Shown here: piece after piece, positions 3,931 to 14,920 of the stretch | Layout of the letters: the number at the start of each line of letters is the position of its first letter | How positions within the stretch are numbered: the stretch's first letter is position 1 | From: Rubeoparvulum massiliense | GTDB taxonomy: Bacteria > Bacillota > Bacilli > Rubeoparvulales > Rubeoparvulaceae | DNA length: 64,000 bases | Direction of reading: 5' to 3' | Assembly: GCF_001049895.1 (NCBI RefSeq) | Contig: NZ_CVPE01000006.1 | Coordinates: 530,957 to 594,956, forward strand | The notes under the pieces: model-generated | Told to the model about the DNA's origin: nothing | Database searches by the model: none | The model's input: the letters and a program-made list of their open reading frames with translations, nothing else | Made by a program: the position numbers and the translations under genes

Positions 3931-4090
3931 ATCCTTTCCACTCCTTAACAACCGAGACTAACGATGATCTTCTTCTAATTATTATGCCCTTTTCAGAAGT
4001 TGATGTGCAAGGAGGTAACCTGATATAGTCTTTAGACCACCAGCGGGCTATGTCGGTGCACCTAATAGATAAGATTGATCATTAAACATT

Positions 4091-4129
4091 AAAAAAACAC
4101 AAGGGAGTGTGTTGATCTACCCCCTTGTG
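4091..4129 (-). terminator. terminator of sodA
   Basis: On the minus strand an 8-base stem (CACAAGGG/CCCTTGTG) is followed by seven Ts, 43 bases after the sodA stop. Confidence 0.75.
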
Positions 4130-4171
4130 ACTCTTCGCTTCATATTCTATTCGACTTACAATATGCTTGCT

Positions 4172-4783
4172 TTACTTAGCAATCGCAGCTAAATAACGAC
4201 GATTTACCTCTGCCCAGTTCACAACATTCCACCATGCTGCAACGAAGTCAGGGCGACGATTTTGGTATTCTAAATAGTAGGCATGCTCCCACACATCCAC
4301 AACGAGAATTGGTGTTTTCCCTTGTGCGAGTGGTGTATCTTGATTGGAGGTACTCATTACTTCAAGCTTGTCTCCATTAACAACGAGCCAGCCCCAACCT
4401 GATCCAAACTGACCTGTCGCAGCCTTAGTCAGAGCTTCTTTAAGATTGGCAAGACGGCCAAAATCTCGCTCAATGGCTTGCGCAACCTCACCGCTTGGTT
4501 CACCGCCACCATCAGGACTCATAATGGACCAGTAAAGATTGTGTGCAAAGTAACCTCCACCATTATTACGCACGGTTGTGCGAATGGCTTCAGGAATTGC
4601 ATCAAGGTTGCTTAGAATCTCTTCAATAGATTTCGCTTGAAGATCTACATGACCTTCTAACGCTTCATTTAATTTATTTGTATAGTTTGCATGATGCTTC
4701 CCATAATGAATCTCCATCGTCCGAGCATCCAAATGTGGTTCCAAGGCATCAAAGGCATATGGTAGTTGTAGTTGAGTAAACAT
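4172..4783 (-). CDS. sodA: superoxide dismutase (Mn/Fe)
   Basis: A 203-residue cytosolic superoxide dismutase that converts superoxide to hydrogen peroxide and oxygen. The four metal ligands are visible: His26 (IHYGKHH), His81 (YFAHNLYW), and Asp163 with His167 ([12 protein letters not shown]). The length and the GSGWGWLVV and NQDTPL segments fit the manganese-preferring Bacillus type. The start (MFTQLQLPY) is set by AAAGGAG eight bases upstream; the longer open frame has no binding site. It is monocistronic, with a terminator behind it, and lies near a peroxiredoxin that could remove the peroxide it makes. Confidence 0.95.
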
Positions 4784-4981
4784 AGAACTTCTCCTTTCTA
4801 GTATTGAGTAGTAGTTTGGAATGGCTGGTAACCAATCCATATTTATCTTACATCATTGTCACCATTTTGTATATGTAAAACTATTTTTCCTTATGGAAAC
4901 TTAAACTCCCATTTTCTTCGTCTTCTTCTCTTTCTGGTACTTATTAACTTATCAAAAAGAGAACCTTTAGAGAGAACCTTT

Positions 4982-5019
4982 AAAAAAAGCGAAGGAAGCT
5001 ACATCTCCCTTCGCTTTTT
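4982..5019 (-). terminator. terminator of the thioredoxin-like gene, possibly bidirectional
   Basis: A 12-base stem (AAAAAGCGAAGG and its complement) flanked by A and T runs on both sides, about 35 bases after the stop of the redox protein. Confidence 0.75.
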
Positions 5020-5052
5020 GCGCATATTCCATTGCTCACCAGACTCAATCTC

Positions 5053-5292
5053 TTACCGATGTTGAGATATCAACTGCTTAACTTCTTCAACGGACAAGAC
5101 TTTTCCAGTGCTTACTACCTGATCATTGATGACCAAGGCTGGTGTGCTCATCACTCCGTATTTCATGATGGCACCAAGATCCTCTACCTTCTCAACGGTA
5201 GCATCTAGTTCTATGGCATGTACCGCATCGCAGGTATTTCGCTCAAGTTGTTTACATTTTTTACAGCCTGTTCCTAGTACTTTGATCTCCAT
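5053..5292 (-). CDS. small thioredoxin-like redox protein
   Basis: A 79-residue protein of the glutaredoxin/thioredoxin-like redox-active disulfide group (TM0996/MTH895 type). The redox motif GTGCKKC places the two cysteines at residues 10 and 13, and the cis-proline motif MSTPALVIND follows. It is encoded directly after the permease and ArsR-type regulator, an association common in bacteria, so it probably works with the permease on a metalloid or thiol-bound substrate. The internal ATG at 5292 is preferred because AGGAG lies eight bases before it, while the first ATG is too close. Confidence 0.8.
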   Translation of the reverse strand: MEIKVLGTGCKKCKQLERNTCDAVHAIELDATVEKVEDLGAIMKYGVMSTPALVINDQVVSTGKVLSVEEVKQLISQHR

Positions 5293-5325
5293 CTTCATCG
5301 CTCCTATTTCGTATTAATGATTAAC

Positions 5326-6273
5326 CTAGATTATCCAGTTGAAAAGATAGCCAATTATCATGATGCCCACTGTTACTGTTCCCACAAAGGCGGCAATCAG
5401 CTTGGGCTTGATCACCTTACGTAGCAGGATCACTTCTGGCAGGGAAAGAGCTGTGATGGCCATCATAAACGAAAGTGCTGTTCCCGGTGCTACTCCCTTA
5501 TTCATCAACGCCTCGATGATGGGGAGTGAACCGACAGCATTGGAATAGAGGGGTACTCCAATGATGGTGGCAAAGGGTACAGCCAACCAGTTCTCTTCAC
5601 CTGCATAACGAACCAATAATTCCTCTGGTGCATAACCATGGATCCAAGCACCAATGCCGATCCCAATGAGAAGGTAGAGCCAGATTTTTTTCACTGTATC
5701 CGCAACATTCTGCCAAGCATCGTGCAGACGCTCCCTTTGGCTCAGTTGGGCAATCGTTGATTCCCCCATCTGAATCTGATACACATAGGCTTCAATCTGA
5801 TCCTCCATCTTCAACTTGCCTAGGAACCAACCTGCCACCATGGCTAGCACAACACCAAAGAGAATGTATAAAGTAGCGATCTGCCCGCCAAACATGGAGA
5901 AGAGTAGAACTAAGGAAATCTCGTTCACAATCGGCGAGCTGATCAAGAAGGTTAAAGTGATGGACAAAGGAATTCCCGCTTCAACAAAGCCAATAAATAA
6001 TGGCACCGTGGAGCAAGAGCAAAATGGTGAAACTACACCGAGTAAAGCAGCCAGAACAATCCCGAAAAACAGTCGCTTTCCCTGTAGCCATAACTTCACT
6101 TTTTCTGGTGGAAAATAGCTACGTAGGTATGAGATGATGAAAATCATCACGATCAGTAAAAAGAGAATTTTTACCGTGTCATAAATAAAGAAATGGATGG
6201 CACCACCTAAGCGTGTCTCCACCGAGAGTCCCAATAGTTGCGTAACAATCCACGTCGCCAATTGTTCAAACAT
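5326..6273 (-). CDS. permease of the DUF318/ArsP-like family
   Basis: A 315-residue integral membrane protein with about eight hydrophobic segments arranged as two blocks around a hydrophilic middle. The first block carries PFCSCSTVPLF, and the second GVPLYSNAVGSLPIIEAL, the paired signatures of the COG0701 permease family (YraQ/ArsP). Some relatives export organic arsenicals; the substrate here is unproven. It sits between an ArsR-type regulator and a small thioredoxin, so metalloid or thiol-linked efflux is a fair guess. The start could be the GTG three codons upstream; neither has a strong binding site. Confidence 0.8.
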   Translation of the reverse strand: MFEQLATWIVTQLLGLSVETRLGGAIHFFIYDTVKILFLLIVMIFIISYLRSYFPPEKVKLWLQGKRLFFGIVLAALLGVVSPFCSCSTVPLFIGFVEAGIPLSITLTFLISSPIVNEISLVLLFSMFGGQIATLYILFGVVLAMVAGWFLGKLKMEDQIEAYVYQIQMGESTIAQLSQRERLHDAWQNVADTVKKIWLYLLIGIGIGAWIHGYAPEELLVRYAGEENWLAVPFATIIGVPLYSNAVGSLPIIEALMNKGVAPGTALSFMMAITALSLPEVILLRKVIKPKLIAAFVGTVTVGIMIIGYLFNWII

Positions 6274-6335
6274 TATGATCACACTTTCTCTTGAGAATGG
6301 GATAATTCAACCTAGATGGTGAACCCTAGAATTAA

Positions 6336-6671
6336 TTATTCCTTCGATTCAACACCACCCTCATCTAGCTCTTCGAGGATATGACAGACAAGATGATAAA
6401 AAGAGCTTTCTGGATTGAGGGAATAGTGAATCCATTGACCATTACGTCGTTCCTGGACAATCTCCAGATCCTTTAGCTTCCGAAGGTGCTGACTAATGGC
6501 TGGTTGGCTCATTTGAAAGCGCGGAACCAGTTCACAGACACAGTATTCACGTTGCCGTAGCAAATGTAGAATCTGCAGCCTTGTCTTATCCCCTAACAAT
6601 TTGACCACAGGAGCCAACTGATTCAATTTCGCTTCATTCATGCGTTGCTCCACCACCATCATGCTCATCAC
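6336..6671 (-). CDS. ArsR-family metal/metalloid-responsive repressor
   Basis: A 111-residue winged-helix repressor. The recognition helix MSQPAISQHLRKLKDL is clear, and a Cys-Val-Cys pair (EYCVCEL, about residues 44-46) is placed as in ArsR, where it binds As(III) or Sb(III) and releases DNA. It heads an apparent operon with the permease and the thioredoxin-like gene. A 7-base-arm palindrome just upstream is the likely self-operator. Several start codons lie close together behind AAAGGGAAG, so the exact start within residues 1-5 is uncertain. Confidence 0.85.
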   Translation of the reverse strand: MMSMMVVEQRMNEAKLNQLAPVVKLLGDKTRLQILHLLRQREYCVCELVPRFQMSQPAISQHLRKLKDLEIVQERRNGQWIHYSLNPESSFYHLVCHILEELDEGGVESKE

Positions 6672-6689
6672 TTCCCTTTCAGGTATTAG

Positions 6690-6711
6690 TATATAACTAT
6701 ATGCTTATATA
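6690..6711. promoter_or_regulatory. candidate ArsR operator
   Basis: TATATAA and TTATATA form an inverted repeat with an 8-base centre, 19 bases upstream of the arsR-like gene. Size and AT composition fit ArsR-family operators. Confidence 0.5.
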
Positions 6712-6769
6712 ATGCAATCATTATTTTTGCTAAGCATCATGGCTAGCCAATCGCCTAATCAAATCTTCT

Positions 6770-7105
6770 CTATCCTAGCTTGTCCCCTTTTTTCACGGAA
6801 CGTTCAGGAGTAATGAGAACGACGCCTTGCTCTGAATAGATACCAAGAACCAGTACCTCAGAGATAAAATTGGCAACCTGTCGTGGAGGAAAATTAACAA
6901 CACCAAGTACCTGACGACCAATCAGCTCTTCTCGTGTATAGCATTCAGTAATCTGTGCGCTGGACTGTTTTACACCAATCTCTTCCCCAAAATCCACCCA
7001 TAATTGGTATGCAGGCTTTCTTGCCTTTGGAAACTCTTCTACACGTAGAATTTCGCCAACTCGAATATCTAGCTTCAAGAAGTCCTCAAATGTGGGCATG
7101 TTCAT
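6770..7105 (-). CDS. csaA: CsaA-like tRNA-binding chaperone
   Basis: A 111-residue protein of the EMAP-II/OB-fold tRNA-binding family. The text LDIRVGEI...VEEFPKARKPAYQLWVDFG...GVKQSSAQIT...GRQVLGVVNFPPRQVANFISEVLVLG matches CsaA along its whole length, and the size equals the Bacillus protein. CsaA binds tRNA and can assist protein secretion. The start at 7105 is set by GGGAG eight bases upstream; an earlier in-frame ATG has no binding site. It appears monocistronic. Confidence 0.9.
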   Translation of the reverse strand: MNMPTFEDFLKLDIRVGEILRVEEFPKARKPAYQLWVDFGEEIGVKQSSAQITECYTREELIGRQVLGVVNFPPRQVANFISEVLVLGIYSEQGVVLITPERSVKKGDKLG

Positions 7106-7199
7106 ATGGACAACTCCCATTGGTTTCGTTATTCCTAATTATACCCATACATGCACTTAGTGTAAATCCACATACAGCCATGAACAAGTATCCAAGCAT

Positions 7200-7227
7200 A
7201 CACCTCGAGAATTCATACCATATAGTA
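7200..7227 (+). promoter_or_regulatory. sigma-K-like promoter
   Basis: CATATAGTA fits the sigma-K -10 pattern CATA-N3-TA, and an AC dinucleotide lies 17 bases upstream, as in the -35 element. It precedes the first spore-appendage-like gene by about 50 bases. The overlapping CATACCATA also fits the -10 pattern. Confidence 0.4.
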
Positions 7228-7278
7228 AGGCTAACACGCTGCCTGACAGACATCTAAAAAGAGGAAAGGAATGATAAG

Positions 7279-7641
7279 ATGGGTATCAATTGCTGTTGCT
7301 GTCCCCCATTTGAAACACCTATTTACTTTAACGATAGCTTCTGCCGCTATTTCAATGTAGCTTGTGGAACAACCTTGTATGAGGTTTGGGCTGCTGATGT
7401 AGGTATTGTTGAACCATTTGGTAGCATTGTTCTCTATAATGAGGGAAATTGTGCAATTACACTCTACCTTAATAGCTCAGGAAGTAGTACCGCTACTATT
7501 CAACCAGGGGATTCTTTTTCTGGCACTTTCAACAGTCTATTTCGCGTTCAAATTAGCTGTGCTAGTGATGGTACATCTCCATCCCGTTGTAAGGGGCGAG
7601 TTTGTATTGATCTTCATTATCGTCGTACTTCTACCACTTAA
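7279..7641 (+). CDS. endospore appendage (Ena/DUF3992-like) subunit
   Basis: A 120-residue cysteine-rich protein with no signal peptide. It begins MGINCCCCPPF (Cys5-8) and then has a beta-rich domain: GSIVLYNEGNCAITLYLNSS...IQPGDSFSGTFNSLFRVQISC...KGRVCIDLHYR. This order, with a Cys-rich N-terminal connector, a PG-S turn, and a closing C-I-(x)2-HYR strand, resembles the DUF3992 subunits of Bacillus endospore appendages, which polymerise through disulfides between the connector and neighbouring subunits. There are ten cysteines. It is followed 48 bases later by a second Cys-rich gene. The assignment is by pattern, not alignment. Confidence 0.65.
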   Translation: MGINCCCCPPFETPIYFNDSFCRYFNVACGTTLYEVWAADVGIVEPFGSIVLYNEGNCAITLYLNSSGSSTATIQPGDSFSGTFNSLFRVQISCASDGTSPSRCKGRVCIDLHYRRTSTT

Positions 7642-7689
7642 TAGTTCGATAAACTCCAACAAAGAATCAAAAAATTGAAGGTGATACCA

Positions 7690-8271
7690 ATGAAGATGCA
7701 TGGTTGCTGTCCTCCCTTTGAAAAACCTAATATACCAGGTGGCTTTTGTCCCTGCTGTGCTCGAGCATTAGCTGAGATCCTACGAAGGATCATTACCTCT
7801 CCCAATAATGCCATCGACATCCGTACCACATCACAGACCAGTTCAGGTAAGCTGCTTGATGTAATACCAAAGGCCATCCGACAAAATGTTTTATTGGAAG
7901 TTGATCGTAATGGTACACAGCAAATCGTGAATTTATGCGAGGTGGTAACGATTGGTGATGCCAAAGGAGGAACTGCTGGTGGTACCGCTGTACGTGACGT
8001 GTCCTTTACGGGAATTAATGCAACCAATTGTGGTTGCTGTGAACAGGCCTTAACCAATCTATTTCAACAATTACAAGGTAGAACCTTCGATGTTTTAACC
8101 ACCAGCCCACAAACGGATAATAGTTTCAATGTAGTCTCCATTCTTGCCATCACAAATGGAGTGGTGAAGATCAATACTGGTGGTCAAGGTAATCCTGTTC
8201 CACGCATCGTCTCCCTATGTCACGTTGTCTCATTAGAAGATATTACACCACCGCTACCACCATCAGTGTAA
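7690..8271 (+). CDS. cysteine-rich two-repeat protein, candidate spore appendage or coat partner
   Basis: A 193-residue protein made of two diverged copies of one domain. Copy one has CPCC (Cys20, 22, 23) and a single Cys83 in IVNLCEVVTI; copy two has CGCC (Cys114, 116, 117) and Cys177 in IVSLCHVVSL. The spacing from the last Cys of CxCC to the single Cys is exactly 60 residues in both. Each copy also shows an F/I-D-(I/V)-x-TTS segment. Its N-terminus, MKMHGCCPPFE, echoes that of the Ena-like protein just upstream, so the two are probably co-transcribed and co-assembled. I do not recognise the family. The ATG at 7690 is chosen for AAGGTG six bases before it. Confidence 0.6.
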   Translation: MKMHGCCPPFEKPNIPGGFCPCCARALAEILRRIITSPNNAIDIRTTSQTSSGKLLDVIPKAIRQNVLLEVDRNGTQQIVNLCEVVTIGDAKGGTAGGTAVRDVSFTGINATNCGCCEQALTNLFQQLQGRTFDVLTTSPQTDNSFNVVSILAITNGVVKINTGGQGNPVPRIVSLCHVVSLEDITPPLPPSV

Positions 8272-8273
8272 AC

Positions 8274-8633
8274 TCACTCTTCTTCACAGTCATCCAAATG
8301 ATCAAGTCGATAATGGATACTAAGACAATACTTGCCTCGGTACGTTCCACTTCCATCTGTACAATGAACACACACTTTTCTGAGATTTCGGATGGTGAAG
8401 GAGCGGGTGTTCTTAAGAGGAACGGAGAAACAAACCTCCTCACGGTAGGTCTGCTCGATACGAACAATCAAGCTTTCACATTTCCCTTCATCATAGTAAA
8501 TCGATACTGTTCCAGACGTGATAAAGTGTGGTTCGGCCTCCCATAGCACTGTCTCTTCAGGTGTGGTCATAACGAAATTTCCGCAAAACTGATCACCCAC
8601 ACCTGAGGAGATAAATATATCACCATGCTCCAA
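8274..8633 (-). CDS. second endospore appendage (Ena/DUF3992-like) subunit
   Basis: A 119-residue protein with the same architecture as the first Ena-like protein but on the opposite strand: DQFCGNF, then SGTVSIYYDEGKCESLIVRIEQ, a hydrophobic core VPLKNTRSFTIRNLRKVCVHC, and the closing RGKYCLSIHYRL. There are seven cysteines and a Cys-containing acidic tail. The N-terminal connector is shorter and lacks the CCCC cluster, so it may be a minor or capping subunit. The start is TTG, with GGGGG seven bases upstream. Its stop lies two bases from that of the facing two-repeat gene. Confidence 0.6.
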   Translation of the reverse strand: MEHGDIFISSGVGDQFCGNFVMTTPEETVLWEAEPHFITSGTVSIYYDEGKCESLIVRIEQTYREEVCFSVPLKNTRSFTIRNLRKVCVHCTDGSGTYRGKYCLSIHYRLDHLDDCEEE

Positions 8634-8710
8634 ATAAACTGCCCCCTTTACATACCACTAAGAAGATAGATCATCTTACCCTAGTAATATGTCTAAAGTC
8701 TATGGAAGGT

Positions 8711-9280
8711 TCATAGCTGAGGATATAATCGATTAATCTGGGTCAATGAATCAATGGTAAGTTGGACAAGTAGGGGAAAATCCGGGATCTGCAGCTCACC
8801 AATTTTCCGCTGGAAGGAGCATTGAAATTCTACAGAAAACTGCTTCTTCTGAAGCCCATACGGATAAGAGAGGATAGGAACGATCAAGAGTCTGCCATCC
8901 CAAAGCTGTTCCAGCATGGTCACAACCGGTGGTATAAACCGTTCAGGATCGAAGATGGTACAGCGATAAGCAATGATCAGCTCACATCCGAGCTCCTCCA
9001 CCGCTTGGAGTTCAAGGATCTCCCCTGCCAATTCATGCAAGGGAGCACGTAAGCTGATCTGGGCTACAACGTTCCCCTTAAGCTGAGGCGTCTCTTCATC
9101 AACAGCTTGGCTCGTCTCGTGATCCCTTTCCTGGAATCCCATGATAAATTCACGTTCAAGGGTAGCGAGATCCACAAGATCACGACGCTGCGTGACTAGA
9201 ATTGCCCCAGCAAAGTCCTTTTCATACAGAGCGCCTTCTAATACGGTTTTAAGATTGTCATAAATGGTGGGATCAAACAT
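8711..9280 (-). CDS. hypothetical protein
   Basis: A 189-residue soluble protein that I do not recognise. It is mixed alpha/beta, with no signal peptide, membrane segment or obvious catalytic motif. The first third is acidic and helical (NLKTVLEGALYEKDF...LATLEREF), and the last third is rich in hydrophobic strands. The start at 9280 (MFDPTIY) has AAAAGGAG seven bases upstream; the longer open frame has no site. It lies between the Ena-like cluster and the divergent regulator, so a spore-related role is possible but unsupported. Confidence 0.5.
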   Translation of the reverse strand: MFDPTIYDNLKTVLEGALYEKDFAGAILVTQRRDLVDLATLEREFIMGFQERDHETSQAVDEETPQLKGNVVAQISLRAPLHELAGEILELQAVEELGCELIIAYRCTIFDPERFIPPVVTMLEQLWDGRLLIVPILSYPYGLQKKQFSVEFQCSFQRKIGELQIPDFPLLVQLTIDSLTQINRLYPQL

Positions 9281-9426
9281 CTTTAAGCTCCTTTTTTGCA
9301 AAATGTCCAAGTTATCGTCAAATAATATTCCATTCTTTCTCAACATGAACCACTGAAATCAGTATACACTACAAAAATGAAAGGACCGTCATTCGGTTGA
9401 GTTGGTTCGTGTTAGGAGGAGTATTG

Positions 9427-10107
9427 GTGGCCATCGATATTCGAGACCATATTGAACAGTTTACCATTTTTCAAGAATTACCTGAACAAACGGTTCATGA
9501 GCTCTTAGAACATGCTTACATTCGGGAATATAAAAAGGGCGAGATGCTTTACCACGCTGGACAATTGCGAGATCGCATCTTCTTCTCTATCAACGGCTAT
9601 GTAAGGCAAGAACGTATCAGCCTTGAGGGAAATATTCATACCACCTTCTACATGAAACCCTATAGCATGTTCCCATACGCTGGTCTATTTGAAGATAAGC
9701 TCTACTCATTTTCCTGTCTCGCCATGACCAATGTTACCACCTTTTACATACCTAGAAATAAGTTTGAGGAGATGATCTCGCAAAACGCCATGGCCTTGAT
9801 CAACATTATTAAGGTGCTAAATCAGACAATTATTCATGTGGAGCGCCGTGTCCGTTATGTGAATCATCCTTTAGCATCTGAGCGAGTACGACGTCTACTT
9901 GCCTATTTAATACGTTTAATCGGTGAAAAAAAGGATGAGTATATTATTATTCCTTGTCCTATTACGACACAGGATTTAGCATATATGTCCGGTACAACGA
10001 GGGAGACTGTCAGCCATAATCTCCATGAATATATGAATCGAGGGCTAATCTGCATGAACTCTAAGGTGATTACCATTAAAGTTCCCAGCTTTTTCGATGT
10101 GGATTAA
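9427..10107 (+). CDS. arcR: Crp/Fnr-family regulator, probably ArcR
   Basis: A 226-residue transcription factor with an N-terminal cyclic-nucleotide-binding-like barrel (about residues 10-125), a long dimer helix, and a C-terminal helix-turn-helix (TTQDLAYMSGTTRETVSHNL). There is no N-terminal Cys cluster, so it does not sense oxygen through FNR-type iron-sulfur binding. It converges on arcC at the end of the arginine deiminase operon, the position and family of ArcR, which activates arc genes under anaerobiosis in Bacillus. GTG at 9427 is preferred because AGGAGG lies seven bases before it. I could not find a clear TGTGA-N6-TCACA site upstream of arcA. Confidence 0.75.
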   Translation: MAIDIRDHIEQFTIFQELPEQTVHELLEHAYIREYKKGEMLYHAGQLRDRIFFSINGYVRQERISLEGNIHTTFYMKPYSMFPYAGLFEDKLYSFSCLAMTNVTTFYIPRNKFEEMISQNAMALINIIKVLNQTIIHVERRVRYVNHPLASERVRRLLAYLIRLIGEKKDEYIIIPCPITTQDLAYMSGTTRETVSHNLHEYMNRGLICMNSKVITIKVPSFFDVD

Positions 10108-10145
10108 CGACTCATGAATGTGAATCATCCCATATTAATGTGTAG

Positions 10146-10177
10146 AAAAAGGAAGAATGCCATGGCACTCTTCCTTT
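10146..10177. terminator. bidirectional terminator between arcR and arcC
   Basis: A near-perfect palindrome: AAAGGAAGA..TGCC pairs with its complement around a 2-base centre, flanked by A and T runs. It sits between two converging genes. Confidence 0.7.
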
Positions 10178-10186
10178 ATTATTCAT

Positions 10187-11137
10187 CTATTCATGAATGA
10201 CCAGTGTTCCTGCATTACCTTGGATCGCATCGAAGGCTCGCTCAAGGGAGGTAATAATCGCCTTGCGTCCTGGCTTGGACATCGCAAAACTCATCGCTGC
10301 TTTCACCTTAGGTAGCATGCTTCCTGGGGCAAAATGGCCTTCCTCCATCAAGCGTTGCATTTCAGTGGTCGACACCTTGGACAGCTCCTGTTGATTAGGC
10401 TTATTAAAGTTGATGGCAACCCGTTCAACCGCTGTGAGGATAAGAAGGATATCTGCATCCACAAGCTCAGCCAACTTCTCTGCACCAAGGTCCTTATCGA
10501 TCACGGCTTCCACCCCATGCAGATCACCTTTTTCATCTTGAATAACAGGGATTCCTCCACCACCTACGGCAATCACAATAAACCCAGATTGAACCAAGTG
10601 ATGAAGCATATTTCCTTCCACGATGGTCTGGGGAATGGGCGATGGTACAACACGGCGCCATCCACGTCCAGCATCCTCCTTAAAGGTATACCCTGTCTCA
10701 TCAGCGATTCGCTTCGCTTCCTCTTCCGTATAGAATGGTCCCACTGGCTTTGTCGGATTGGTAAAGGCGGGATCCTGCGGATCAACAATGGATTGTGAGA
10801 TAATGGAAGCTACCGTCTTTTGAATATCTGCCTGCCGCATTACATTCCCAACGGCTTGTTGGAGCCAATAGCCAATCTCCCCTTGACTCATAGCGCCGCA
10901 AGTATCGAACGGCATAGCTGGTGTCTTGTCCGTCTTGGCTGCCTCTTGCTGTAGCATAATGTTTCCAACCTGTGGTCCATTACCATGCGCTACAACAATT
11001 TCATGTCCTGCTTGAATGATTTGTAATAACTGCTGTGCAGTACGGAAGCAAGCTTCTTGCTGAGCTTTCGCTGTTGCTTCATTGCCGATCTGAATGGCGT
11101 TACCACCGAGGGCAATGACAATACGTTGTTGTTCCAT
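10187..11137 (-). CDS. arcC: carbamate kinase
   Basis: A 316-residue enzyme of the amino acid kinase fold that makes ATP from carbamoyl phosphate and ADP, the energy-yielding last step of the arginine deiminase pathway. The N-terminal ALGGNAI loop, VAHGNGPQVGNI, and the IAVGGGGIPV and DILLILTAVE segments are typical of the family, as is the length. It is the last gene of the arcA-arcB-arcD-arcC operon, with a GAGGAGG site before the ATG and a shared terminator after it. Confidence 0.95.
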   Translation of the reverse strand: MEQQRIVIALGGNAIQIGNEATAKAQQEACFRTAQQLLQIIQAGHEIVVAHGNGPQVGNIMLQQEAAKTDKTPAMPFDTCGAMSQGEIGYWLQQAVGNVMRQADIQKTVASIISQSIVDPQDPAFTNPTKPVGPFYTEEEAKRIADETGYTFKEDAGRGWRRVVPSPIPQTIVEGNMLHHLVQSGFIVIAVGGGGIPVIQDEKGDLHGVEAVIDKDLGAEKLAELVDADILLILTAVERVAINFNKPNQQELSKVSTTEMQRLMEEGHFAPGSMLPKVKAAMSFAMSKPGRKAIITSLERAFDAIQGNAGTLVIHE

Positions 11138-11177
11138 CCTTCTACCTCCTCTGTTGAATAACCTTTACTCATGATGA

Positions 11178-12596
11178 CTAAGGAGCAATTTGTCCTGTTG
11201 ATAGCAGGTAGATTGCCCAGGCAGCTGCCGCAACTAGCAGGATTGCAATCACAAGCTCCATGGGCTGAAATAACTTTTTCTGATACTCATGTTTGGCACG
11301 CCAGTAGAAAAAGATACCAGGTGCATAGAGTATCATCACCATCAGTAGATATTCCAGTCCTGCTGCATAGACAAGCCATATGGCATAGAGCGTTGCTACA
11401 ATTCCTAGGAAGAGATCCCTTCCCCTTGACTCCTTGGGCTTATAGGCCTCCCCTGTCGCTGAAAGCTTCAATTGATAGAGGGCCGAGAACAAGTAGGGAA
11501 TAAGGATGGCAGTCCCTGACATAAAGTATAAGGCTTGGTAGGTCGATTGTGCAAACAAAACAAGGACTAAAAATGTTTGAATTAGCAAGGAAGTTAACCA
11601 AAGTGAGCTTAGTGGACTCCCATTCTTATTCTCCCGCTTTAACCATTTGGGGAATACTTCATCCTTCGCTGCGACAAAAGGGATCTCTGCGGCTAATAGG
11701 GTCCAGCCCAAGAAGGCCCCCAGTAAGGAGATGACCAAGCCTATATTGATGATGGCAGCACCCCAAGAGCCTACCACGCTCTCCATCACATAAGCCATGG
11801 AAGGATTGCTTAAGGCCGCTAAATCAGGCTGGGTCATTATGCCAAGGGAGAATAAGGAGATGAGCACATAGATGATCAAGGTGCTGATTAAGCCGATCAC
11901 CGTAGCTCGTCCCACATCACGACGCTCCTTGGCTCGGCCAGAAAGAACCACAGCTCCTTCCACACCAATAAAAACCCAGAGGGTCACGAGCATGGTACTG
12001 GCCACCTGATCCTTCACCGTCTTCCAGTCGAATGTAGGACCACCCCAAAAGTTAAAGGTGAACTTGTCCACATTGAAGGCGAGAATCACAAAGATAATAA
12101 ATAAAAGGATGGGAACCAATTTGGCAATGGTAGTGATCATATTAACTATAGAGGCTTGACGAATCCCGCTTAGAACCAACGAATGGACGACCCAAAGAAG
12201 GACAGAAGCTCCAATAACAGATGCAAGGTTATTCCCCTCACCAAAGATGGGAAAGAAATAGGCTAAGGCTCCAAAGAGTAAGGTAAGATAGGCAACGTTA
12301 CCTAACCATGCTGAGAGCCAATACCCCCAAGCACTGTTAAATCCTAGAAATTCACCAAAGCCTGCACGGGCGTAACTATAAACACCTCCATCCAGTTCTG
12401 GCTTGCGGATGGCGAGATTTTGATAAGAAAGGGCAAGGGCGATCATTCCAATACCCGTGATCACCCAACCGATAATTACTGCTCCACTATTGGCTCCAGC
12501 AGCCATGTCACTGGGGAGGTTGAAGGCTCCACCACCGATCATGGAACCGATAACCAGCGCTGTTAGGGCTGCTAAGCCAAGTTTTTTCTCTTGCAT
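11178..12596 (-). CDS. arcD: arginine/ornithine antiporter of the APC family
   Basis: A 472-residue membrane transporter with about 12 hydrophobic segments. The N-terminal [12 protein letters not shown] motif is the substrate-binding signature of the APC superfamily's basic amino acid/polyamine antiporters, and the overall text matches the arginine:ornithine exchangers of arc operons. It should bring in arginine in exchange for ornithine made by ArcB, so the pathway needs no net energy for transport. It lies between arcB and arcC on the same strand. AGGTG precedes the ATG. Confidence 0.9.
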
Positions 12597-12644
12597 ATGT
12601 TCACCTCACTCAAATCACGATGATGTATACATATTTTTACCTTT

Positions 12645-13637
12645 TTATTGTAAGGTCAGAGCCATAACCGCTTTGATCGTATGCATCCGATTCTCCGCCT
12701 GATCAAAGACCACCGAGTGATGGCTACGGAATACCTCGTCGCTTACCTCCATCTCCTTTAAGCCCCATTTTTCATAGACCTCTTTACCAACCTGGGTTTC
12801 AAGATCGTGGAAGGCTGGTAGGCAATGGAGGAAGATACTCTCTGTTTTGCCCGTCCGCCGGAAGAGATCCATGGTGACTTGATACGGCTTGAGGAGCTGG
12901 ATCCGTTCTTCAAACTTATCCTCTTCACCCATGGAGACCCACACGTCGGTATAGATGGCATCTGCGCCAACTACAGCATTCTGGATATCCTCAGTGATCT
13001 CGATGATGGCCCCGGTCTCCTGTGCTACATTCTTACAATATTGGACCAGCTCATCATCTGGCACTAAGTGACTGGGAGCTGCGATAACAAAATGAAGTCC
13101 CATCTTCGCGGATCCCACCATGAGACTGTTGGCCATATTATTTCGACCGTCTCCACAATAGACGAGCTTCACACCCTTTAAGCGGCCTAGCTTTTCTTGA
13201 ATGGTTAAGAAATCAGCTAGAATCTGGGTTGGATGATATTTATCAGTTAGACCATTCCAAACTGGCACACCTGCATACTTAGCTAGCAACTCGACGGTTT
13301 CATGCTTAAAGCCACGGAACTCGATCCCATCAAACATCCGACCCAATACCTTGGCTGTATCTTCCACCGATTCTTTCTTTCCAAGCTGAATATCGCCCTT
13401 TCCTAAATACTCTGGATGGGCACCTAAATCGATACAAGCTACGGTAAAGGCAGTACGAGTCCGTGTGGAAGGCTTTTCAAAAATGAGGGCAATATTCTTC
13501 CCCTCAAGGACACGGTGAGGGACACCCGCATATTTCAGATCCTTATAATTCTTAGCGGTCTCTAACATAAACTGTATCTCTGCAGGTGTAAAATCCCGCA
13601 AGGTTAAAAAATGTCGATTCTTTAGGTTAAATGGCAT
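12645..13637 (-). CDS. arcB: ornithine carbamoyltransferase, catabolic
   Basis: A 330-residue enzyme that in this setting splits citrulline with phosphate to ornithine and carbamoyl phosphate. The carbamoyl-phosphate motif [12 protein letters not shown], the [11 protein letters not shown] segment, and the ornithine-side motif [10 protein letters not shown] are all present. Its place between arcA and arcD marks it as the catabolic enzyme rather than biosynthetic ArgF. AAAGGAG precedes the ATG. The two end motifs and the length are intact, so it should be active. Confidence 0.95.
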
Positions 13638-13687
13638 TGATGTTGCTCCTTTACTTTATTTTTTGTTGATCAGCCTTAGTATTTTCC

Positions 13688-14920
13688 TTAGAGATCCTTC
13701 CGAACAAGGGGCATGCTCATGCAACGAGGACCACCACGACCCCGAGCGAGCTCAGAGCTTTGGACTTCGATCACTTCTAACCCATGCTGGCGCAGGAGCT
13801 CATTGGAGACATAGTTCCGATCATAGGTGACTACCACACCAGGAGCGATGGCTAGTGTATTGGAGCCATCATTCCACTGTTCTCGCTCGGAGGCGATTGG
13901 ATCTCCTCCACCACAGGGGATCAACACCACTTCACTCTTTCCGAGTACAGCCTTTAATGTATCGATTAGATTATGCGTAGTTGTGATTTTCACACTCTCT
14001 TGATCCTCGCCAGGCTCGAGAATATAGATATTCATCTCCCCAGCAGGTCCTAAGATGGCTGGATGGATCGTGAACTTGTCTACGTCCACCATGGTGAAAA
14101 CCGTATCCAAATGCATGAATGCCCGCTTCTTCGGGATCTCAATAGCCAACACCTTCTTAAAGCCTGAGTTCTTCTGAAAGAGGCTGATAGCAAGACGTTC
14201 AATGGCTTGTGCTGTTGTTCGTTCACTGATTCCGATGGCAACAATCTCATTACCCAATACGAGCTCATCTCCACCTTCAATGGAAAAACGATAGTCGCGA
14301 TCAATCCAGACTGGAATTTCATGACTACTAAAGCGCGGATGGTATTTAATGATGTATTCCATAAAGAGGGATTCACGTCGTCTCGCAGGCTTACTCATCC
14401 GATTGATGGTTAAGCCTGAACCAATGGTGGCTGCTGGATCCCTTGTGAAATAGAGATTGGGCATGGGATCCAGGTAAAACGGATAGATATCCTCCAGCAT
14501 TTCGTATAAATGCATTTTTCGATTCTTCGGGATCTCCTTTTTACGGATGCCAGCCATCAAGGTCTCCACCATCTTTTCATTGGAGAGAGAGAGCAGATAT
14601 TCCTTCAGATCTTCTTCTACGTGCTGGATATTGGATTTTGATTCCTTCAAGATCTCTTCGACAAACTGAACTCGTACTTCTTCCTTATGCAATGCTTCCG
14701 CAGCGAGCTTCTCTAAATAGAGGACCTCGATTCCACGATTTTGCAAGGTTTTCGCAAAGTAGTCATGCTCTTTCTGAACCGCAGGAAGATACGGAATATC
14801 GTCAAAGAGTAGGCGTTCGAGAAAATCAGGTGTTAAATTCTCTAATTCCTTACCAGGTCGGTGAAGCAGAACAGATTGAAGCTCTCCAATCTCTGAGGTT
14901 ACATGTAAAGGATGTTTCAT
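13688..14920 (-). CDS. arcA: arginine deiminase
   Basis: A 410-residue enzyme converting arginine to citrulline and ammonia, first step of the pathway. It has the N-terminal [18 protein letters not shown], the [10 protein letters not shown] substrate motif, the EGGDELVLG motif, [10 protein letters not shown], and the C-terminal [15 protein letters not shown], whose Cys is the nucleophile. The length matches the family. It is first in the operon; the ATG at 14920 has AGGAGG eight bases upstream, better than the TTG before it. Ammonia released here also raises pH, which may matter in acid stress. Confidence 0.97.

Follow-up and report, generated by a model that had tools for sequence, protein, structure and literature searches.

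In S-ENA fibres, disulfide staples run from Cys10 and Cys11 of a subunit to Cys109 and Cys24 of subunits in an adjacent turn (PMC8619143). The S-ENA fibre is anchored by Ena1C, the gene for which adjoins ena1B in the opposite orientation (PMC12921279). L-ENA is assembled from the tether ExsL, the fibre protein Ena3A, and the tip protein L-BclA, and L-BclA carries a CC connector (PMC11952670); fibre connectors point toward the spore (PMC12921279). The tip proteins of S-ENA are partly known, and the 2026 paper on Ena1C names no coat receptor for the S-ENA anchor (PMC12921279). Sigma-K control of the ena genes has been proposed for B. paranthracis, and a 2021 review considered ena clusters to be unique to the B. 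cereus group (PMC8619143). The locus analysed here belongs to Rubeoparvulum massiliense, a host that is only distantly related to Bacillus cereus. Most likely, a set of three genes in this organism builds, anchors, and tips hair-like spore fibres, and we consider it reasonably probable that the set represents a self-contained Ena (PF13157) module made up of a fibre, an end-ring anchor, and a CxCC tip.

The three genes lie side by side in the window, i.e., the whole 64-kb stretch of DNA that was analysed (Table 1); the Ena proteins are referred to here by the first coordinates of their genes and the product of the 7690 gene as the CxCC protein. An earlier note on this DNA had described two small Cys-rich proteins on opposite strands with HYR-type ends, one of them with an N-terminal CCCC connector, and both open reading frames were confirmed. 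The 7279 protein begins with MGINCCCCPPFE, which holds the CCCC connector, and ends in CIDLHYRR, while the 8274 gene has a TTG start preceded by a AAAGGGGG ribosome site and encodes a protein ending in CLSIHYRLDHLDDCEEE. The cysteine fractions of these proteins (0.083 and 0.058, respectively) compare with a median of 0.006 and a maximum of 0.019 among the 45 window ORFs of at least 200 aa. The third Cys-rich gene, reported to lie between the two, is indeed present and belongs to the module; its start was corrected from the mechanical TTG at 7675 to the ATG at 7690, since a GAAGGTGA ribosome site precedes the latter. This gene is situated 48 bp downstream of the 7279 gene and is convergent with the 8274 gene, the two stop codons being 2 bp apart. 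Both SpoIVA and CotE are encoded in the host genome, indicating that the host is a spore former, and its nearest relatives among the genomes compared share only its class. On one side of the cluster, a single string of genes at 5053-6671 (- strand) encodes an ArsR-type regulator, a permease, and a thioredoxin-like small protein and resembles metal/metalloid resistance sets. Positions 9397-14500 hold the gene set of the arginine deiminase pathway (Crp/Fnr regulator, carbamate kinase, amino-acid antiporter, ornithine carbamoyltransferase, and an apparent arginine deiminase).

Table 1. Features of the Ena locus in the window (feature, coordinates, strand, and description)
Fibre-subunit gene (very probable role)	7279-7641	+	120 aa, 10 Cys, PF13157 match
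CxCC-barrel protein gene	7690-8271	+	193 aa; candidate tip protein
Connector-less Ena gene	8274-8633	-	119 aa, 7 Cys, acidic C-terminal tail; candidate anchor ring
Sigma-K-type promoter motif	7200-7227	+	AC-N17-CATATAGTA; its end lies 51 bp upstream of the fibre gene

Both Ena proteins matched PF13157 (Enas, formerly DUF3992) in Pfam far above the cut-off of 22 bits, with 79.5 bits (2.5e-22) for the 7279 protein and 68.4 bits (6.6e-19) for the 8274 protein. The suggested DUF3992 profile search thus upheld the likeness to endospore appendages that had been proposed for the pair. The family was detected in 14 of 300 sampled Bacilli, in 5 of the 398 genomes sampled across the phylum, and in none of 14 control genomes, and because it is this rare, the match is specific and not due to chance. 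No match to DUF4183, the F-ENA family, was found among the module genes in the Pfam scan. About 300 kb away, the host genome contains a second Ena locus (L048, G000:C6:834000-848000, positions 6669-9013) with two further Ena proteins, one of which has a Lys/Cys-rich N-terminal extension; the pair lies beside a divergent collagen-like gene, and a SPOCS-domain gene follows downstream. Among the other Ena loci, L047 has five near-identical tandem Ena genes (4027-6599, + strand) near recombinase and transposase genes, and L043 (4593-5879, - strand) encodes a 428-aa protein in which an Ena domain is followed by apparent YVTN-type beta-propeller repeats, possibly a fibre-tip adhesin.

When a profile built from six Ena proteins of the window and of Anoxybacillus was searched against solved structures, 9t3p (4e-8), 7a02 (1.5e-4), and 9i0y (0.0027) were found. 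In this alignment, Cys24 and Cys109 of Ena1B correspond to Cys22 and Cys109 of the 7279 protein, and Cys5-8 of the latter line up with Cys10/11 of Ena1B. Since the 7279 protein has a connector CC together with equivalents of Cys24 and Cys109, the combination expected of an S-ENA fibre subunit, the whole S-ENA stapling scheme is present. Judged by its sequence, the 7279 protein is very probably a fibre subunit and, because all of the S-ENA stapling cysteines are conserved, the stalk is probably S-ENA-like. The suggestion of a distinct fibre type was not borne out for this reason; what sets the locus apart is its anchor and its third protein. It might also be argued that fibres have been lost and that the locus encodes Ena-fold coat proteins cross-linked into a surface layer only, as PF13157 domains are also parts of coat proteins and the second Ena locus of the host could supply fibres. 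However, the 7279 protein keeps every stapling cysteine at nearly the same spacing (14 residues from the CCCC connector to Cys22, against 13 from Cys11 to Cys24 in Ena1B), and we regard such a loss as improbable.

Promoters recognised by sigma-K follow an established consensus. The motif upstream of the 7279 gene is a perfect match to AC-N16/17-CATANNNTA, 1 of 4 such matches on both strands of the window. Across the Ena loci, the full sigma-K-type motif is found upstream of 7 of 47 Ena genes compared to 3 of 189 control ORFs from the same loci, a contrast that is only indicative because many of the 47 genes are operon internal and some are near-identical copies. The motif also precedes the CxCC gene in Anoxybacillus. 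The presence of such a motif argues against expression in growing cells only.

The 8274 protein was modelled with confidence as an eight-strand jelly roll (pLDDT 81). With this model, Foldseek returned the nonameric ring of Ena1C (9t3p) as the best match (7.9e-8), along with the fibres of Ena2A (4.1e-7), Ena3A (2.4e-6), and Ena1B (2.5e-6); the solved Ena structures matched were 9t3p, 9i0y, 8pdz, and 7a02, so the jelly-roll fold that the earlier note had put forward for checking was recovered. Similarity to Ena1C does not by itself assign an anchor role, because the best PDB sequence match of the 7279 protein is also 9t3p (Ena1C). Rather, the 8274 protein keeps both sockets (Cys17 and Cys103) and has no connector, the 16 residues before Cys17 containing neither Cys nor Pro, and with the sockets kept and the connector absent, an end-ring subunit is expected rather than a stalk subunit. 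The lumenal Cys142 of Ena1C (Cys109 in Ena1B) has its counterpart in Cys103, and the 8274 gene, like ena1C, is oriented opposite to a neighbouring fibre gene, being convergent with the CxCC gene between them. The inter-chain cysteines of Ena1C, Cys148 and Cys154, are not conserved: Arg109 occupies the Cys148 position (HYR versus TYC), as derived from an alignment that assumes a 16-residue tag in chain 9t3p_A, and Cys116 is the only cysteine near the C-terminus. The N-terminal linker of Ena1C, which is rich in Cys and Pro and about 33 residues long, likewise has no equivalent in the 8274 protein, nor does this protein carry the N-terminal CotZ domain of ExsL, since the NCBIfam model CotZ_rel matched the Ena part only (E 0.009). 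Neither CotZ nor BMQ_0737, on which the 8274 protein might dock, was detected in the host genome. A tblastn search of plasmids with this protein gave no match. A bare Ena protein with a similar acidic tail adjoins a fibre Ena in genome G133 (L038).

The trio of genes recurs in six of nine Anoxybacillus genomes, with clusters in A. mongoliensis, A. tengchongensis, and A. flavithermus (L063-L065); the Ena genes are reciprocal best matches of those in the window, and the CxCC homologue is clear. Reciprocal best matches were used because the deep forks in the tree of Ena domains are mostly open. By this measure, the 7279 protein pairs with a 112-aa Ena protein (34% identity), and the 8274 protein pairs with a 289-aa fusion (36% identity, 8e-17) of an Ena domain to a domain of the BMQ_0737 type (NF052457, 118.6 bits against a cut-off of 71). 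Of 41 genomes from the Anoxybacillus family, 11 encode such Ena/BMQ_0737 fusions (L102-L106, L063-L065, and L107-L111), and six of the 11 have the full trio. In B. megaterium spores, BMQ_0737 is a protein of the outermost layers (PMC4656864), and the ENA papers cited here make no mention of a tether with this architecture. The counterparts of the 8274 gene in other Bacilli are CotZ-Ena fusions (NF040827, up to 358 bits), the architecture of ExsL, the known L-ENA tether. In L034 and L036, genes for CotZ-Ena, Ena, and BclA are adjacent, an order that by analogy is that of tether, fibre, and tip in L-ENA. Because fusions to BMQ_0737-type and CotZ domains recur, the Ena partners of fibre genes repeatedly carry coat-binding parts, and this comparative argument for a putative anchor is stronger than the one from structural similarity. 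Another gene, 8711-9346 (- strand; no Pfam match), adjoins the Ena cluster both in the window and in Anoxybacillus; it was rejected as a module member, being found in 59 of 151 Bacilli and far commoner than Ena.

These comparisons also bear on whether the two Ena proteins might simply co-polymerise as stalk subunits in the manner of Ena1A and Ena1B, with the CxCC protein as an unrelated coat protein. Both Ena proteins do share the fold family and the Cys24 and Cys109 positions. However, the 8274 protein does not have the connector that is the source of the axial stalk links (PMC8619143), its closest relatives are coat-protein fusions, and the trio has been retained in a second family, all of which makes co-polymerisation quite unlikely. 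The role that we favour for the 8274 protein, with moderate confidence, is that of an anchor, in which it would form an Ena ring and hold the fibre. The description of this protein as a cap or minor subunit was therefore close, but the evidence favours a ring on the spore side over a distal cap.

The CxCC protein matched no family in Pfam or NCBIfam, and sequence searches of NCBIfam, PHROGs, and the PDB returned nothing usable. It contains two internal repeats (4e-7), each with CxCC at its start and a Cys near its end, and these may resemble the repeats of B. subtilis CotB. Two barrels, each of a helix and five strands, were predicted with modest confidence (pLDDT 68, pTM 0.74), for which the Foldseek matches were all weak and to small barrels in tandem, among them the tandem Tudor domain of 53BP1 (E 0.012), and the barrel fold class is thus a hint only. 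The connector of this protein, CCPPFEKP, compares with CCPPFETP in the 7279 protein, a match reached by 4 of 5000 shuffles in which the cysteines were kept fixed. That a CxCC connector always mirrors the Ena connector of its own genome holds in the window and fails in Anoxybacillus, where the connector CCCAP fits the CCPD of its own Ena no better than it fits those of others. Eight of 399 Bacilli encode a CxCC protein, and four of the eight also have Ena (Fisher p 2e-4, a value to be read with caution because the query came partly from Ena genomes). The gene lies beside Ena genes in the window, in Anoxybacillus, and in G175, and CxCC proteins also occur in four Ena-less genomes (G008, G163, G182, and G201).

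Collagen-like proteins of Peribacillus alkalitolerans and of a Bacillales MAG end in a C-terminal head formed by the double CxCC domain, and CxCC relatives in L066 and L067 carry collagen repeats. The 7690 protein itself has, according to Pfam, neither collagen repeats nor a BclA/C1q head of the kind that would identify it with L-BclA. Since connectors point toward the spore, the sockets left free on a fibre look away from it, and the distal end would suit a protein that has a connector and lacks the Ena fold. We tentatively suggest that the CxCC protein is the tip, an assignment that falls slightly short of an even chance. Alternatively, the CxCC protein would link ring and coat, with its connector in the anchor ring and the Cys-rich barrels cross-linked into the coat, or act as a structural coat protein, leaving the fibre and anchor roles unchanged. 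The 8274 protein has neither a linker nor a coat domain, so another part must join it to the coat; neither CotZ nor BMQ_0737 was detected, and the CxCC proteins of Ena-less genomes imply that the domain also acts at the coat surface independently of Ena. Nevertheless, Anoxybacillus keeps its CxCC protein even though the anchor there already has an outer-coat domain, and the C-terminal end of collagen-like proteins, where CxCC is found, is the outward end in BclA-type proteins. A linking role is thus rather unlikely.

Under the favoured reading of fibre, anchor, and tip, the module would be expressed in the mother cell during late sporulation. The 7279 protein would polymerise into an S-ENA-like disulfide-stapled pilus, in which neighbouring jelly rolls would join sideways and the CC connector would plug into the Cys24 and Cys109 positions of the preceding turn. 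With sockets and no connector, the 8274 protein could not extend the stalk; its end ring would instead receive the first fibre subunits and secure the fibre on the coat of the spore, as Ena1C and ExsL do in B. cereus. The 7690 protein would insert its copied connector into the free distal sockets, and its CxCC barrels would form the tip in the place of L-BclA.

The Anoxybacillus genes point to how the spore coat holds Ena fibres, since the Ena/BMQ_0737 fusion names a specific outer-coat layer as a docking site, and the CxCC protein becomes a candidate tip or link. It is possible, if still doubtful, that these loci represent a third mode of Ena fibre construction, apart from S-ENA with Ena1C and from L-ENA with ExsL and L-BclA, in which an Ena ring, either grafted onto a BMQ_0737-type outer-coat protein or bare in hosts without one, would be combined with a tip from a hitherto undescribed family of tandem CxCC barrels held by a copied connector. 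The Anoxybacillus cluster has all three genes and an adjoining homologue of the 8711 gene; it differs in the fusion of its anchor-like Ena to the BMQ_0737-type domain and in its gene orientations, the CxCC gene being convergent with the fusion gene and not downstream of the fibre gene. F-ENA, whose DUF4183 fibres belong to a different protein family, also has distinct proteins for the anchor and the tip of its spore fibres. With the ena1A-ena1B-ena1C locus of Bacillus cereus/paranthracis (7a02 and 9t3p), the window shares the jelly-roll fibre subunit, the CC connector, the Cys24/Cys109 sockets, and a nearby ena1C-like gene in the opposite orientation. In contrast to that locus, the host has one fibre gene instead of two, a CxCC gene in between, and an anchor-like subunit without the Cys/Pro-rich linker and the Cys at the Cys148 position. 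Compared to the L-ENA genes exsL, l-bclA, and ena3A (8pdz), the host has a putative tether without a CotZ domain and a tip candidate without collagen repeats or a BclA/C1q head, yet the logic of tether, fibre, and tip is shared, and L-ENA is the closest parallel to the window.
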